Below are positions 7,012 through 13,173 of a stretch of DNA of 64,000 bases, in pieces. The position numbers were made by a program, and so were the translations under genes. The first letter of the stretch is position 1. The number at the start of each line of letters is the position of its first letter. Source of the DNA: Thermodesulfomicrobium sp. WS (lineage in GTDB: Bacteria > Desulfobacterota > Desulfovibrionia > Desulfovibrionales > Desulfomicrobiaceae). Location of the stretch: assembly GCF_027925145.1 (NCBI RefSeq), contig NZ_AP027130.1, positions 1,488,001-1,552,000 on the forward strand. The letters are read 5' to 3'. The notes under the pieces were generated by a model. That model was not told the origin of the DNA. It saw nothing but the letters and a program-made list of their open reading frames with translations, and searched no databases.

Positions 7012-7446
7012 ATGTTCCAAGTCAAGGACATCATGACGGAAGACGTGTTCACCCTCAAAGAAACCGATACCTTGAGTGCGGCCAAGGACCTCATGAGTTT
7101 GGCCCGCATCCGCCACATCCCCATTGTGAACGACGCCGGAAAATTCGTGGGTCTGGTGACCCACCGGGATATCCTGTCCGCTACGGTCTCCAAACTTGCA
7201 GGCATCGATTCCGCAACCCGAGAAGAGATCGAATCCCGCATCCCGGTGCGCGAGATCATGCAGCGGGAAGTGACCACCATCCGTGAAGACGCCCCGCTCA
7301 AAGAGGCGGCCACCATCCTGCTCCGGGGAAAGTTCGGCTGCCTGCCGGTGCTGCGGAAGGGCAAACTTTGCGGCATCATCACCGAGGCCGATTTCCTGCG
7401 CCTCACCATCCAGCTCCTCGAAGCCACGGACGTGGACGACGCCTAA
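7012..7446 (+). CDS. tandem CBS-domain protein
   Basis: A 144-residue protein made almost entirely of two CBS domains (a Bateman module), which usually bind adenosine nucleotides or similar ligands. The first runs from about residue 5 (VKDIMTEDVFTLKETDT) to the mid-60s, the second from about 82 (VREIMQREVTTIREDA) to the end. The motifs IVNDAGKFVGLVTHRDIL and GKLCGIITEADFL are typical CBS ends. Start 7012 follows AAAGGAGG. No catalytic domain is attached, so it is probably a regulatory adaptor with an unknown partner. It sits between hypB and the biotin operon on the same strand. Confidence 0.88.
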   Translation: MFQVKDIMTEDVFTLKETDTLSAAKDLMSLARIRHIPIVNDAGKFVGLVTHRDILSATVSKLAGIDSATREEIESRIPVREIMQREVTTIREDAPLKEAATILLRGKFGCLPVLRKGKLCGIITEADFLRLTIQLLEATDVDDA

Positions 7447-7490: not shown

Positions 7491-8468
7491 ATGCACGCCA
7501 TCCATCCCCGCATCCAATCCGCCCTGGAAACGGTGCTCGCCGGCGGCACAGTCTCGCCAGAGGCGGCGATGGAGATCGCTCTCCTGCCCGACTCCGAGAC
7601 CCCAGGCCTGCTGCTGGCGGCCCGCACCATCCGCCGGGCCTTTCTCGGTGCAGCCACGCACCACTGCGCCATCGTCAACGCCAAGAGCGGCCGCTGCTCG
7701 GAAAACTGCGCCTTTTGCGCCCAAAGCAGCCATTGGCCCACTGCGGTTTCGCAGTACGGCCTCTTGGATGAGGCCAGCCTCGTGGCGCGCGGTGAAGAAG
7801 CCGCCGCCTGGGGGGTGCGCTGCTTTTCCCTGGTGACCAGCGGTCTGCGCCTCTTACCCCGGGAGATGGAGACCGTGTGTCGGGTGGTGGAGGTCCTGCG
7901 CCGGCGCACGAACCTGGAAATCGCCGCCTCCTTGGGGCTGCTTTCCGAAGAGGACGCCCGCTGCCTGCGGCAGGCAGGGCTGGTGCGCTACCACCACAAC
8001 CTGGAGACCGCGGGCTCATTCTTTGCCCGCATTTGCTCCACCCATGATTACGCCGAAGACCTCGCCACTGTGGAGCGGGCCAAGGCCCATGGATTTTCCG
8101 TGTGCTGCGGCGGCATCCTCGGCCTTGGGGAAGGATGGGCCGAACGCATCGAGCTCGCCTGCACCCTGCGCGACCTCGAGGTGGACCGGGTCCCCCTCAA
8201 TTTCCTCACCCCCATCCCCAAGACCCCACTGGAGAACCAGCCCCTCCTTGCCCCGGCCGAGGCCCTCAAAAGTATCGCCCTCTTCCGCCTGCTTGTGCCC
8301 CGCGCCGGCATCACCATCGCCGGCGGACGCGGCCGCGTGCTCCAAGACTACCAGTCCTGGGCGCTTCTCGCCGGCGCCACCGGCTACATGCTCGGCAATT
8401 ACCTCACGACTCCGGGGCGGGATCTTGCCGCAGACCAAGCCATGCTGGAGGCCGGGACATGGATTTGA
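7491..8468 (+). CDS. bioB: biotin synthase BioB
   Basis: Radical-SAM enzyme that inserts sulfur into dethiobiotin, the last step of biotin synthesis. It has 325 residues. The radical-SAM cluster motif is CSENCAFC (Cys69, Cys73, Cys76), and the family's CAQSS follows directly. Other BioB features are YHHNLETA (about residues 170-177) and the C-terminal TIAGGRGR with the conserved arginine near the [2Fe-2S] site. The ribosome-binding site is weak. It is the first gene of the operon, and its stop overlaps the next start by 10 bases. I saw no clear BirA or BioR operator in the 44-base gap upstream. Confidence 0.95.
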   Translation: MHAIHPRIQSALETVLAGGTVSPEAAMEIALLPDSETPGLLLAARTIRRAFLGAATHHCAIVNAKSGRCSENCAFCAQSSHWPTAVSQYGLLDEASLVARGEEAAAWGVRCFSLVTSGLRLLPREMETVCRVVEVLRRRTNLEIAASLGLLSEEDARCLRQAGLVRYHHNLETAGSFFARICSTHDYAEDLATVERAKAHGFSVCCGGILGLGEGWAERIELACTLRDLEVDRVPLNFLTPIPKTPLENQPLLAPAEALKSIALFRLLVPRAGITIAGGRGRVLQDYQSWALLAGATGYMLGNYLTTPGRDLAADQAMLEAGTWI

Positions 8469-8770
8469 CCATCATGCACCGCTCGCCCTCCCAGATCACG
8501 GCGCAGCTTTCCTTTTCCGCCCACGACCCCTGGGTGCGGGAGCACTTTCCCGGCGCTCCCGTGCTCCCTGGATCCCTGGCCCTGGCGGCCGTGCTCTATC
8601 TTGCCGAACACCTGGCCGCGCAAACATGGACGGTCCGGCGGCTGCGCTGCCACGCCCCGGTGCCGCCGGGCACCTACCGCCTGTGCGTCAGCCAGCACCA
8701 GGGCGGCGTGCGCGGCATGCTCGTTGACGCTCACGAAACGCCGCTCGTCTCTGCGGAGCTTGTGCCATGA
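8459..8770 (+). CDS. FabZ/FabA-like hotdog protein of the biotin operon (His half)
   Basis: A 103-residue hotdog-fold protein related to 3-hydroxyacyl-ACP dehydratases. It has the hallmark HFPGAPVLPGS (residues 29-39), so the catalytic His of FabZ is present (His29). The FabZ catalytic Glu, 14 residues downstream, is Ala here (Ala43). The rest follows the FabZ strand pattern (APVPPG, then a short C-terminal end). ATG 8459 overlaps the bioB stop, and its own stop overlaps the next start by 4 bases (ATGA). Probably a dehydratase subunit for pimeloyl-chain building. Alone it would lack a complete active site; see the second hotdog protein at 10956. Confidence 0.75.
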   Translation: MDLTIMHRSPSQITAQLSFSAHDPWVREHFPGAPVLPGSLALAAVLYLAEHLAAQTWTVRRLRCHAPVPPGTYRLCVSQHQGGVRGMLVDAHETPLVSAELVP

Positions 8771-9483
8771 AGCTTACCTTTCAGGGCCGCCGCGCCCTCC
8801 TTCTGGGCGGAAGCTGCGACCTTGGATTGGCCCTCATTCCACTCCTCAACGCCGAAGGGCTCGAAGTCTTCGCCACCGCCGCCTCCGCGCCAGGACGGGC
8901 CCGCCTCGCCGCCCTGCTGCCACCGGAGCGGATATACACCGTGCACCTCGGAGAAGCGGCAAGCGTATCGGTATTGGCCGAAAACCCGCCGCTGGTGGAC
9001 TATCTGGTGGATCTGGCGCACCTGCGGGAAGACGACGCCCTGCTGCTCTCCCTGGACCCCGCCAAGGCCCACGCCACCTGGATGGCCATGGGGGCGCACC
9101 GCCACCAGCTCATCTGCGCCCTGGGCCGCGGCATGCTCGCCCGGCGTTTCGGACGCATGCTCTACGTCTCTTCCACCGCTGCCGCTGTCCCTGCCCCAGG
9201 GCAAGGACTCTACAGCGCCCTCAAGCGGGCTGCTGAAGGCATCTATCACACCCTTGGGGTGGAGCTCGCCAGCCGCGGGGTCAGCACCGTGAGCCTGCGC
9301 CTTGGTCTGACCCAGGCCGGCCGCGGGGCCGCCTTTCTTGAGCACCACCCCCACCTCCCCTGGGTATCCCCCGAGGACGCCGCCTCCTGCATGGTGTTTC
9401 TCCTCTCCGACCAAGGGCTGTGCATCCGTTTGACCTCCATCACCGTGGACGCCGGACTCTTAGCGCGTAAGTATTCATCATGA
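8767..9483 (+). CDS. SDR-family oxidoreductase (FabG-like) of the biotin operon
   Basis: A 238-residue short-chain dehydrogenase, the likely 3-oxoacyl-ACP reductase of the cluster. The N-terminal Rossmann loop is GGSCDLG (about residues 14-20), a variant of TGxxxGIG. The catalytic Ser (Ser135/136 in LYVSSTAAA), Tyr149 and Lys153 (YSALK) are all present. The closing segment SPEDAASCMVFLLSD is typical of FabG. It overlaps the preceding gene by 4 bases and the following ACP gene by 4 bases. Placement inside bioB-bioF-bioD argues for a dedicated role in making the pimeloyl chain rather than general fatty acids. Confidence 0.85.
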   Translation: MKLTFQGRRALLLGGSCDLGLALIPLLNAEGLEVFATAASAPGRARLAALLPPERIYTVHLGEAASVSVLAENPPLVDYLVDLAHLREDDALLLSLDPAKAHATWMAMGAHRHQLICALGRGMLARRFGRMLYVSSTAAAVPAPGQGLYSALKRAAEGIYHTLGVELASRGVSTVSLRLGLTQAGRGAAFLEHHPHLPWVSPEDAASCMVFLLSDQGLCIRLTSITVDAGLLARKYSS

Positions 9484-9839
9484 CTGACGAAATCATTCGA
9501 ATCATTGCCGATATCATGGACCAAGACCCGCACACCATCACCCCCGCCACCTACCTGGTGCGGGATCTGGGCGCTCAGTCCATCGACCTTTTGGAAATCG
9601 GTGTGGCCATGCAGCAGCGCCTGGGCATCCCGGTGCAGGACGACACCCTGTTTTTGCGGGATCTGCGTCTGGTGCTGCTGCGTGCCGCGGACGAAAAGAC
9701 CGCGCCCGAAGCGGCCTTGGCGCAGCGCTATCCCCATCTGAGCCCGGCGCGCATCAGCGCCATCCTTGCGGATCTCGATGCCGGTCCGGTGCTGCAAGTG
9801 GCGGATCTTGTCGCCTACGCCGTCCACGTACGCTCATGA
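9480..9839 (+). CDS. acyl carrier protein-like protein of the biotin operon
   Basis: A 119-residue protein whose first ~75 residues resemble acyl carrier protein. The phosphopantetheine site appears as DLGAQSIDLLEI with Ser34 (the usual motif is DSLD; here QSID). It is longer than typical 78-residue ACP, with a C-terminal helical extension of about 40 residues of unknown role. Start and stop overlap both neighbours by 4 bases. It is likely the dedicated carrier on which the pimeloyl precursor is extended and from which BioF takes its acyl group. Confidence 0.8.
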   Translation: MTDEIIRIIADIMDQDPHTITPATYLVRDLGAQSIDLLEIGVAMQQRLGIPVQDDTLFLRDLRLVLLRAADEKTAPEAALAQRYPHLSPARISAILADLDAGPVLQVADLVAYAVHVRS

Positions 9840-10978
9840 AGGTTGTGCTCACCGGCTGGGGGGCGGTCACCCCCTTGGGAGCGAGCCCGCAGGCCATGGC
9901 CGAGGCTGTGCGTCGAGGGCAAACCCCCTTTGTCCCATCGCCATGGGGGTATCCGGTGGCCCCGGCACCTTCCCCCAATGTGCGCGCCCTCGTAGGTCCC
10001 ATGAAAAACGCCCGCTACCTCTGCCGGGCCGGGCGCCTGGCCGTGGCTGCAGCGGTGCAGGCAGTGGCGGATGCGGGGCTTGCTCCTCCACTTTCTCGGA
10101 CGGCGCTTTTTCTCGGCCTTGGCCCGCACCTGGAGGCAGCCCCACCCCAGGCCTTGTGGCTCTTGTCCGCCATGCCCTCCACCACCACTTCCCTGGTGGC
10201 CGCGGCCCTGGGCATCCACGGGGAAAGCGCCACGCTACTCGGGGCATGTGCGGCCTCGACGCAAGCCTTGGCCTGGGGGGCCCGGACCATCGCCGAGGGC
10301 CGCACCTCCGTGGCCCTGGTGGGCGGCGCCGACAGCCGGGTGGGCGAGCGCGCGGTGGCGGCGTACGCCAGCGCCGGAGTCCTCGCCCCTGCGGACATCC
10401 GCCCCTTCGATAGAGAACGAAGCGGCTTCATCCCCGCCGAAGGAGCGGCTATGATGGTCCTGGAATCCGAAGAGCATGCCCGCGGCCGCGGGGCCCGCAT
10501 CCTCGCCTCCGTCCTCGGCACCGGCATAGGCATCGACGGCCGGGAACTCACCGACCCCAACCCCAAGACCATGGCCCCAGTGGTGCGTAGCGCCCTCAAA
10601 GGGACGGCGGTGGACCTCTCCCGGCTTCTGGTGTTAGCCCACGGCACCGGCACCCGAGCTGGAGACGCGGCCGAAGCCGCCATGCTGGAAGCGGTGCTCG
10701 GCAGCGATTTTCCGGGTGCGGTAACGGCGCTCAAGTCCTGGCTGGGGCACGGGGCCGCCGCCTGCGGACTCATGGAGCTTGCCCTCTTGCTCGCCTGCCG
10801 CAGCCATGGGTTCGTGCCGCCGGTGCGCGGCCTTGCCACCCCGTGCGCCCGGCTGCCCTTCATGCGTGCATGCCGGCCATGGCAGCCGCGCTTTGTGCTT
10901 GTAGAAAGCTTTGGTTTCGGCGGCCAGGCCGCCGCCGTGCTCATGGAGTTGACCCATGCCCTGGGAACCCCGGTTTGA
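9836..10978 (+). CDS. beta-ketoacyl-ACP synthase (FabF/FabB-like) of the biotin operon
   Basis: A 380-residue condensing enzyme. The Cys-His-His triad is intact: Cys138 (LLGACAAST), His269 (LAHGTGT) and His305 (LGHGAAACG), with the conserved Lys300 before the second His. It should therefore be an active elongating ketoacyl synthase rather than a chain-length factor. It is shorter than FabF (about 410). It overlaps the ACP gene by 4 bases and the next gene by 23 bases. The most economical role is malonyl-ACP-dependent extension toward a C7 dicarboxylate; the primer is unknown. Confidence 0.88.
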   Translation: MKVVLTGWGAVTPLGASPQAMAEAVRRGQTPFVPSPWGYPVAPAPSPNVRALVGPMKNARYLCRAGRLAVAAAVQAVADAGLAPPLSRTALFLGLGPHLEAAPPQALWLLSAMPSTTTSLVAAALGIHGESATLLGACAASTQALAWGARTIAEGRTSVALVGGADSRVGERAVAAYASAGVLAPADIRPFDRERSGFIPAEGAAMMVLESEEHARGRGARILASVLGTGIGIDGRELTDPNPKTMAPVVRSALKGTAVDLSRLLVLAHGTGTRAGDAAEAAMLEAVLGSDFPGAVTALKSWLGHGAAACGLMELALLLACRSHGFVPPVRGLATPCARLPFMRACRPWQPRFVLVESFGFGGQAAAVLMELTHALGTPV

Positions 10979-11336
10979 TCCCAGCCAGGCCCTCAGCCGT
11001 ATCCATGCCTATGCCCCGGAGTATCTGGAAGCCGAGGCCCGGGGGGGAAGTCCGGCCATGTTCCTGGAAGCCCTAGCCCAGGCGTGCGGCCTGCACGCCC
11101 GCTGGAGGGCCCGGTTCATGGTGCAGGTCCGCTTGGTTTCCATGGCCGACATTCGCCTGCAGCCCGGCCGCGGCACCCATGTTCACGCCTCTCTTCAGGC
11201 CGCGACCGCTTCCGGCGCACGCTACCGGGTGGAAGCTGATTTTCTGGCCGCTCCGGCCGCAGTGACCCTGGCCCTTCTGCCGGAAGCCTCCCCGCAAACC
11301 CTTTTCCAGAACCGTTTCCAATGGCTCGCTTCCTGA
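10956..11336 (+). CDS. second FabZ-like hotdog protein of the biotin operon (Glu half)
   Basis: A 126-residue protein with the FabZ central helix signature MFLEALAQACG (Glu38 aligns with the FabZ catalytic Glu). The HxxxxPG segment that should lie 14 residues upstream is absent; that position is Leu24 in a Gly/Ala-rich loop. The later strands fit a hotdog fold (ADIRLQPG for the FabZ FKRPVVPG region). It is the mirror image of the protein at 8459, which has the His but not the Glu. The start is supported by GGAG 7 bases upstream. It overlaps the ketoacyl synthase by 23 bases and bioF by 16 bases. Confidence 0.65.
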   Translation: MPWEPRFDPSQALSRIHAYAPEYLEAEARGGSPAMFLEALAQACGLHARWRARFMVQVRLVSMADIRLQPGRGTHVHASLQAATASGARYRVEADFLAAPAAVTLALLPEASPQTLFQNRFQWLAS

Positions 11337-12466
11337 CCACGCTGCACGATCGTCTGCGTGTCCTCGATGCCTGCGGCCTTGGCCGCACGGTGCTGCCCGT
11401 GGAAGACCGCCACGGCCCCATGGTGCGGGTGGACGGCAAATGGCTGGTGGATTTTTCGTCCAACGATATCCTGGGGATCGCAAGGGATCCAGACCTGGCC
11501 GCCCGTATCTGGAATGCGGTGCGGCCCAGACGCCTGGGGGCGGGGGCGGCGCGCCTAGTCAGCGGGCAGAGCCCGGAGCTGGACGAGGCGGAAGCAGCGC
11601 TGGCTGCCTGGTGCGGCGCGCCTGACGCCCTGCTCTTTCCCAGCGCCACGCAGGCCAACGCCGCGGTGGCGTCCCTCTTTCAAGGGGACGACCTGGTGGC
11701 GGTGGACAAACGCGTGCACGGCAGCATCCTGCACGGGCTTTCCGCCAGCCGCGCCCAGGTGCGCTCCTTTGGCCATAATCGTCTCCCGCACCTTGCCCGC
11801 ATCCTTGCGAGCGCCCCGGTTGCCGCTGTATGGAGCGAGTCGCTTTTCAGCATGGATGGCGATAGCCCCGACATCCCGGCCATGGCGCAGTGCTGCCGCG
11901 AGCACGGCGCCCTGCTTGTCCTCGACGAGGCCCACGCCGTGGGGGTGCTCGGAGCGCACGGCAAGGGCCTTGGCGAAGGATACGCCCCGGTGCGCACCGT
12001 GGGACTGGGCAAGGCCTTGGGACTGGTAGGCGGGGCAGTGCTCGGGCCGCCGGAAGTGCGGCGCGCCCTGCTGCACCTGGCGCCTTCGGCCATGTTCACC
12101 ACAGCGCTTCCGCCGTGGATGGGAACGCTCATCACGACCGTGATCCACGAAGTCCGGCAGCAGGAAGAGCGGCGGCGCCAGGTAGCCCACCTGGCGGATT
12201 TGGCCCGCCGTCTGTTCCAGGGCCTTGGCGTCCCGGTGCTGGGGACCCACCATATCCTGGCCGTGGTGCTGGGCAGCGAAACCCGTGCCGCCAAGGTCGC
12301 CTGGCGTCTTCGAGATTTTGGATTTCTCGTCTTTGCCGCCCGCTACCCCACGGTGCCCTTGGGTGCTGCGCGCCTGCGCGTGGTGGTCACGGCCCAGCAC
12401 ACCGAGGAGCATCTCCACCAACTTGCCAGCGCCATAGCCCAGGCGCTTCACGATCTTACGGAGTGA
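11321..12466 (+). CDS. bioF: 8-amino-7-oxononanoate synthase BioF
   Basis: PLP enzyme that condenses the pimeloyl thioester with L-alanine, the first dedicated ring-assembly step. It has 381 residues. Visible motifs are FSSNDILGIA, GAGAARLVSG, SLFSMDGDSPDI, DEAHAVGVLG (about 202-211) and the PLP lysine Lys231 in VGLGKALGLVGG. It overlaps the upstream hotdog gene by 16 bases, and bioD begins 2 bases after its stop. It belongs to the alpha-oxoamine synthase family; the operon context makes BioF more likely than the related Kbl or HemA. Confidence 0.93.
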   Translation: MARFLTTLHDRLRVLDACGLGRTVLPVEDRHGPMVRVDGKWLVDFSSNDILGIARDPDLAARIWNAVRPRRLGAGAARLVSGQSPELDEAEAALAAWCGAPDALLFPSATQANAAVASLFQGDDLVAVDKRVHGSILHGLSASRAQVRSFGHNRLPHLARILASAPVAAVWSESLFSMDGDSPDIPAMAQCCREHGALLVLDEAHAVGVLGAHGKGLGEGYAPVRTVGLGKALGLVGGAVLGPPEVRRALLHLAPSAMFTTALPPWMGTLITTVIHEVRQQEERRRQVAHLADLARRLFQGLGVPVLGTHHILAVVLGSETRAAKVAWRLRDFGFLVFAARYPTVPLGAARLRVVVTAQHTEEHLHQLASAIAQALHDLTE

Positions 12467-12468
12467 CC

Positions 12469-13173
12469 ATGCCGTCTGCGGATCCGCGTGCGATTTTCAT
12501 TACCGGTACGGACACGGATGTGGGCAAAACCATGGTAAGCGCCGCCCTGCTGGCCTGGTTGCAGCCACGCTGCACGACGCCGGTGCGCTACCTCAAGCCG
12601 CTGCAAACCGGCTGCAGCGATGTGGAGCAGGATTCCGATCCCGCCTGGGTGCGCCGGGTGACCGGCGGTTCGTGGTCCGCCGCTGCGGCCGTGCACACCT
12701 GTCTGCCAGCGCCCAAGGCCCCGAGCATCGCCGCTGCTGCGGCCGGCATCACTCTCGACCCCAAGGCCGTTGCGGCCTGGGTGCGCGGGTTCTCCGGGCT
12801 CTGTCTGGTGGAAGGCGCAGGCGGCATTCGGGTGCCCATTGCCCCGGGGTGGACCATGCTGGAGTTCGCCCAGGCCCTTGGCGCCCCCTGTGTGGTGGTG
12901 GCCCGGGCAGGGCTCGGCACCATCAACCATACCGTACTCACCCTGGAAGCCCTTCGGTACGCGTCCGCGCCGTGTTTGGGCGTGGTCTTCTGCGACCCCA
13001 CGGACGCCGTGCCCCATGTGGAGCGCCAGGAAAACGCCGCCGCCATCTTGGAACTCACCGGCGTGCCGGTGCTGGGGACCCTGGGACGCATCACGGACCC
13101 GACTTCCCTCACCCTCAGTCCGCCTGCGGTCATGGCAGAGCTCGGGACGCGGGTCCTCCAATGGGCCTGTTGA
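12469..13173 (+). CDS. bioD: dethiobiotin synthetase BioD
   Basis: ATP-dependent carboxylase closing the ureido ring of dethiobiotin. It has 234 residues from ATG 12469, preceded by GGAG. The P-loop is GTDTDVGKT at residues 13-21, then YLKPLQTGC and VEGAGGIRVPI, all BioD signatures. It is the last gene of the operon. The aminotransferase BioA, which acts between BioF and BioD, is not in this window, so it must be encoded elsewhere or replaced. Confidence 0.94.
   Translation: MPSADPRAIFITGTDTDVGKTMVSAALLAWLQPRCTTPVRYLKPLQTGCSDVEQDSDPAWVRRVTGGSWSAAAAVHTCLPAPKAPSIAAAAAGITLDPKAVAAWVRGFSGLCLVEGAGGIRVPIAPGWTMLEFAQALGAPCVVVARAGLGTINHTVLTLEALRYASAPCLGVVFCDPTDAVPHVERQENAAAILELTGVPVLGTLGRITDPTSLTLSPPAVMAELGTRVLQWAC

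Follow-up and report, generated by a model that had tools for sequence, protein, structure and literature searches.

Do two small hotdog proteins encoded in one biotin operon, each carrying only one of the two catalytic residues of the dehydratase FabZ, constitute a single enzyme? The operon lies within a 64,000-nucleotide (nt) stretch of the Thermodesulfomicrobium sp. WS genome (RefSeq assembly GCF_027925145.1, contig NZ_AP027130.1, positions 1,488,001–1,552,000; the whole stretch is termed the window, and coordinates count from its first letter). The two proteins, HD1 (8459–8770) and HD2 (10956–11336), are encoded on the forward strand, as are all features of the operon described here. As judged from sequence comparison, HD1 and HD2 probably form an obligate heterodimeric dehydratase for biotin synthesis with one composite active site (probability about 0.83), an interpretation supported by the comparative evidence.

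HD1 and HD2 carry complementary halves of the FabZ motif

The FabZ homodimer has a His within an HxxxxPG loop and a Glu 14 residues on in the same chain, and the active sites of hotdog dimers draw residues from both subunits, according to the accessible text of PMC2698920. HD1 (103 amino acids, REHFPGAPVLPGSLALAAV) holds His29 (codon 8543–8545), the predicted catalytic residue, in the HFP loop that carries the FabZ His, with Ala43 (codon 8585–8587) 14 residues on, at the place of the catalytic Glu of FabZ. HD2 (126 amino acids, PAMFLEALAQACGLHARW) holds Glu38 (codon 11067–11069), the predicted catalytic acid, within LEALAQ of the Glu helix; 14 residues earlier stands Leu24 (codon 11025–11027), at the place of the FabZ His if the alignment is ungapped, and no HxxxxPG loop is present. 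The single-chain arrangement is found in neither protein, HD1 lacking the Glu and HD2 the His. The pair resembles FabZ in its hotdog fold and in possessing the HFPGxPxxPG loop and the ExxAQ helix once each, but both motifs occupy one chain in canonical FabZ (14/14) and are split over two genes here. Both reading frames and all of these residues agree with the initial annotation, which had proposed the heterodimer from them.

Family searches place HD1 close to FabZ and ApeI. It scored above the cut-off of the Pfam FabA-like family (28.5 bits, cut-off 23) and below those of the ApeI family PF22818 (20.1 bits, cut-off 28.5) and the NCBIfam FabZ model TIGR01750 (18.7 bits, cut-off 155.15), and an HD1 profile matched FabZ (E = 2.7e-10) and ApeI (E = 1.6e-8) in the PDB. 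HD2 gave no match to TIGR01750, nothing beyond chance level in Pfam and NCBIfam, and no useful match when searched as a single sequence against the PDB. When 17 HD2 rows were compared with Pfam, four families appeared at chance level with one member each, and the ApeP family PF22817 was matched by none of the 17. PF22817 also had no match in the genome of the window, a result of little weight given that the control genomes gave none either. A profile of the 17 rows matched 11 distinct PDB sequences, all of them FabZ-type dehydratases (11/11, best E = 0.0084), and the alignment places the Glu of HD2 on the catalytic Glu of FabZ.

Each half is invariant across related operons

To follow both genes across relatives, HD2 was searched for in 348 genomes of the order, yielding 62 strong matches (E up to 7.7e-19, the next match being 2.2e-4), and a phylum sample of 395 contributed five more (G501, G396, G218, G278 and G506). 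The resulting 67 HD2 genomes, that of the window included, are related, so counts across them cannot be taken as independent. The operon piece of each was read, with 14 canonical FabZ from the same genomes as a control set for the motif counts. HD1 was present within the fetched operon piece in 50 of the 67, and a wider HD1 profile located it elsewhere in 14 of the other 17 (E up to 4.5e-15), for a total of 64/67.

The His of the HFP...PG loop was present in all 64 HD1 relatives, as were HFP and PG, although the HD1 profile may miss relatives without the HFP motif. AQ at +17/+18 from the His was found in 0/64. The residue at +14 was Glu in 18, Asp in 4, His in 11, Gly in 10, Gln in 9, Ala in 8, and Ser, Asn, Arg and Lys in one each; the HD1 of L157, for example, has Asp there as aligned by the full motif, while that of L120 combines an HFPGASVAPG loop with Gln. 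The place of Ala43 varies in the family, Ala being one of several residues found there, which refines the description of Ala43 in the initial annotation as a replacement of Glu. HD2 relatives have the opposite pattern, with the Glu in 67/67, E..AQ in 66/67 and a His 14 residues before the Glu in 0/67. The FabZ controls possess His, Glu and AQ throughout (14/14). Of the possible combinations, only that of the HD1 His with the HD2 Glu is free of exceptions, and this pattern supports a heterodimer that is obligate and has a single composite site. The possibility that two degraded FabZ genes were paired by chance was considered and rejected, as both halves are invariant in other genomes.

Because the 67 genomes were picked for having HD2, its presence in all of them is no test of co-occurrence, and an independent search with the pathway ketosynthase was used instead. 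Among the same 348 genomes, a profile of 21 pathway members picked out 60 (E up to 1.7e-117) and no others as far as the threshold of 1e-90. All 60 also carry HD2 and fall among the 62 HD2 genomes, and in the two outside the 60 (G051 and G543) the ketosynthase is broken or cut. No genome among the 348 had the pathway ketosynthase without HD2.

The history of the +14 position was traced on a rapidly built ketosynthase tree covering 63 of the 67 loci, in which 20 of 60 inner branches were left open; L069 and L123, which are short, and the two loci without a ketosynthase row (65/67 had one) were left out, and the 14 HD1 found outside the operon pieces are absent from it. On this tree the residue changed at least 12 times, the outcomes in the family including Ala, Gly, Gln, His, Lys and Arg, and changes between acid and non-acid numbered at least five, or four without the long-branched L079. 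A dehydratase reliant on the acid of HD1 itself would not be expected to tolerate such repeated change. The position that is free to vary in HD1 is the one that HD2 would supply. The predictions of the composite-site idea that could be examined across homologous operons came out as expected: neither the His of HD1 nor the Glu of HD2 varies, the HD1 acid is free and the genes occur together.

The site that these patterns predict would lie at the subunit interface and would combine His29 from the HFPG loop of HD1 with Glu38 from the central helix of HD2. The mirror-image site would be inactive, since the His loop is missing from HD2 and the acid of HD1 is lost or free to be lost; this other site of the proposed pair has no FabZ-type His and, in 42 of the 64 HD1, no acid. 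The heterodimer would dehydrate 3-hydroxyacyl groups on the acyl carrier protein (ACP) of the same operon, and the dehydration would serve the lengthening of malonyl-ACP to pimeloyl-ACP for biotin. Pairing, site geometry, activity and substrate are all predicted here from the patterns described.

Predicted folds and competing explanations

Models of both chains were generated with AlphaFold2, and each is a hotdog fold of high mean predicted local distance difference test score (pLDDT; 94.3 for HD1, 94.1 for HD2). The closest solved structure to HD1, first in both the Foldseek and the VIA-align ranking, is chain A of 6QSR, the ApeI subunit of the ApeI:ApeP heterocomplex (Foldseek E = 1.8e-6; Z = 14.4, root-mean-square deviation (rmsd) 1.8 Å over 101 residues), with FabZ rows within 1 Z of it. 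For HD2, VIA-align gave FabZ as the best match (Z = 13.0, rmsd 2.4 Å over 101 residues), while ApeP (6QSR chain B) stood at Foldseek rank 32 (E = 2.3e-4), behind FabZ and thioesterases.

Several observations weigh against an obligate composite site. HD1 was not found by the wider profile in three draft genomes, G018, G553 and G624 (84, 91 and 86% complete, respectively), the last of which has a weak partial HD1 match at a contig start. Three HD2 (L073, L128 and L129) have a His 11 residues before the Glu, which a three-residue loop deletion could place at the position of the FabZ His; its presence is sporadic (3/67), Arg being the commonest residue there. An acid at +14 is kept in 22 of the 64 HD1, so some of these proteins could act alone, and the Foldseek list of HD2 contains 4-hydroxybenzoyl-CoA thioesterases as well as FabZ, with a thioesterase at the top.

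The retained acids bear on a model in which an HD1 homodimer is the working dehydratase. Its His would act together with some other residue, and HD2 would serve as a scaffold or as a partner without catalytic function. HD1 alone possesses the full HFPGxPxxPG loop, and such a division of labour has a parallel in HadAB of mycolic acid synthesis, a one-site hotdog heterodimer in which HadB provides both the catalytic Asp and His and HadA only binds substrate, according to the accessible text of PMC4491049. HD1 and HD2 differ from HadAB in that both residues lie on HadB, whereas HD1 has the His only and HD2 the Glu only. The 42 HD1 without an acid at +14 include that of the window, and a scaffold would have no need of the Glu (67/67) and AQ (66/67) kept by HD2. 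The HadAB-like model is therefore disfavoured and considered unlikely.

The Foldseek list of HD2 raises another explanation, namely that HD2 is an enzyme in its own right, a 4-hydroxybenzoyl-CoA-type hotdog thioesterase with the Glu only, and that dehydration falls to the ordinary FabZ of the genome. The top match is an Arthrobacter 4-hydroxybenzoyl-CoA thioesterase at E = 3.2e-5, compared with 4.2e-5 for FabZ. Certain hotdog thioesterases work with a single acid at the position of the FabZ Glu (PMC2698920), and a canonical FabZ is encoded elsewhere in the genome of the window (G000:C1:1912299-1912676, G000 denoting this genome). Both the 17-row profile, which matched FabZ only, and the VIA-align ranking point the other way, and the co-conserved His loop of HD1 would be given no role. 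BioF needs a thioester substrate, so that a hydrolase would waste the product of the pathway. This explanation is considered very unlikely, and a heterodimeric dehydratase remains the preferred reading of the pair.

ApeI:ApeP is a precedent for a split dehydratase

By analogy, a precedent for such a pair is found in ApeI and ApeP of aryl polyene synthesis, described in PMC8041823 as a dehydratase that is heterodimeric and has one active site; the initial annotation did not name it. Taking the residues from printed alignments, ApeI (PDB 6QSR) reads HFPVQPLLPGVAQID, with a His followed by Asp at +14, and ApeP (6QSR) reads LPGWFAIEMMAQ, with a Glu in IEMMAQ and no His 14 residues before it. As in HD1 and HD2, two hotdog proteins encoded in one type II synthase cluster divide the motif, the HFP-loop His lying on one and the Glu on the other, and the fold of the His subunit HD1 is closest to that of ApeI. 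The two systems differ in that ApeI retains Asp where HD1 of the window has Ala, such that the split is less complete on the His side, and in that ApeP has Gly where HD2 has an invariant Arg (67/67). ApeI:ApeP also belongs to a pigment pathway rather than to biotin synthesis, and HD1 falls below the Pfam cut-off for ApeI while HD2 has no Pfam family. A further type II cluster may encode such a split enzyme: in one surveyed genome (G495), locus L080 has two ketosynthase genes next to the gene for an ApeP-like hotdog protein with the Glu only (8347–8775, reverse strand), which scores 26.7 bits with PF22817, slightly short of the cut-off.

An invariant Arg on the Glu helix of HD2

The Glu helix of HD2 contains a second invariant residue. 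An Arg stands 11 residues after the Glu in 67/67 HD2 (Arg49 in the window, codon 11100–11102, on the same helix as Glu38), and a His stands at +9 in 62/67. At +9 all 14 FabZ controls have Leu or Met, and the 11 residues listed of the 14 at +11 are six Ile, two Ala, two Val and one Phe, none of them basic; ApeP has Trp at +9 and Gly at +11. At 100 degrees per residue, the Glu, the Gln at +4, the residue at +7 and the Arg at +11 share one helix face.

Chains extended toward pimeloyl-ACP bear a free carboxylate, which E. coli masks as a methyl ester through BioC and BioH. It is possible, though rather doubtful, that HD2, no longer having to hold the His loop, acquired positive charge at the end of the acyl pocket and so came to accept the bare carboxylate, such that the heterodimer would replace the methyl-ester disguise. 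Arg49 would in this case face the far end of the pocket, where it would contact the carboxylate left free on the dicarboxylic chain. The distance along the helix, approximately 16 Å, is long for such a contact, and the proposal is held only tentatively for this reason; Arg49 could equally bind the ACP or the partner subunit.

Operon context

The operon runs in the order BioB, HD1, SDR, ACP, KAS, HD2 and BioF, with BioD directly after. The biotin synthase BioB (7491–8468; TIGR00433, 357.9 bits) and the dethiobiotin synthase BioD (12469–13173; TIGR00347, 111.8 bits) score above their cut-offs, and the 8-amino-7-oxononanoate synthase-like BioF (11321–12466; TIGR00858, 283.8 bits) scores below its cut-off of 426.45. 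Between these are encoded a 3-oxoacyl-ACP reductase-like short-chain dehydrogenase/reductase (SDR, 8767–9483; PF13561 and PF00106), a dedicated ACP (9480–9839; PF00550) and an elongating ketosynthase (KAS, 9836–10978; PF00109 and PF02801) whose Cys138, His269 and His305 are invariant in 21 rows. Adjacent genes from bioB to bioF overlap by 4–23 nt (23 nt for KAS/HD2, 16 nt for HD2/BioF), which suggests translational coupling. bioA lies far from the operon (G000:C1:2078875-2080104).

With no enoyl reductase seen in the operon and a FabZ encoded elsewhere, some steps of the pathway leave room for a different assignment, and the pair could be non-catalytic and act otherwise, for example by gating the ACP or controlling chain length. 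The catalytic His and Glu are nevertheless kept while the positions around them vary, which makes such a role most unlikely.

The gene set, bio genes together with an ACP, a KAS, an SDR and two FabZ-like genes, is that of the Desulfovibrio-type biotin operon, predicted in 2004 according to the accessible text of PMC545781. In D. vulgaris, ten genes are needed without biotin, and DVU2558-DVU2565 holds nine of them; the FabZ-like members of that cluster are DVU2560 and DORF42491 (PMC10102598, accessible text). By our reading of the count, both are among the nine clustered required genes, which agrees with a joint role of the two proteins. This cluster has the same type of gene set as the operon of the window, with two FabZ-like genes, but includes bioA, which the latter does not. 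The accessible text of the same 2023 genetics paper states that the first stage of this biotin route is still to be defined biochemically; the words 'heterodimer' and 'hotdog' do not occur in that text, which proposes no heterodimer or split site for the Desulfovibrio operon. No proposal of a heterodimeric dehydratase in biotin synthesis was found in the literature as judged by titles, abstracts and passages, most subscription journals lying outside the search. The operon type is known and a one-site heterodimer is precedented; what is new is the invariant Arg on the Glu helix of HD2.

Other features of the operon were observed alongside. The ACP, at 119 amino acids longer than an ordinary ACP, has QSI at the phosphopantetheine Ser where DSL is usual, and a motif scan of 60 pathway loci gave ESI in 48, DSL in 2 and QSI in 2. 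The KAS contains D-S-R at residues 166–168, invariant in the 21 rows of pathway ketosynthases; FabF is not known to have an Arg at this place, and the motif may also have a role toward the free carboxylate. A protein with two CBS domains is encoded just upstream of bioB (7012–7446) and occurs near the operon in many Desulfomicrobiaceae loci.

Implications

If the site is composite, two FabZ-like genes with separate annotations would encode a single enzyme, which would be the dehydratase of this biotin route, and vitamin synthesis would join the few cases of one-site heterodimeric dehydratases considered here. The 67 genomes would then show how complementary loss can divide a homodimer-type active site between two genes. 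In HD2, the invariant Arg would offer a concrete handle on how, lacking BioC and BioH, these bacteria deal with a free dicarboxylic chain.

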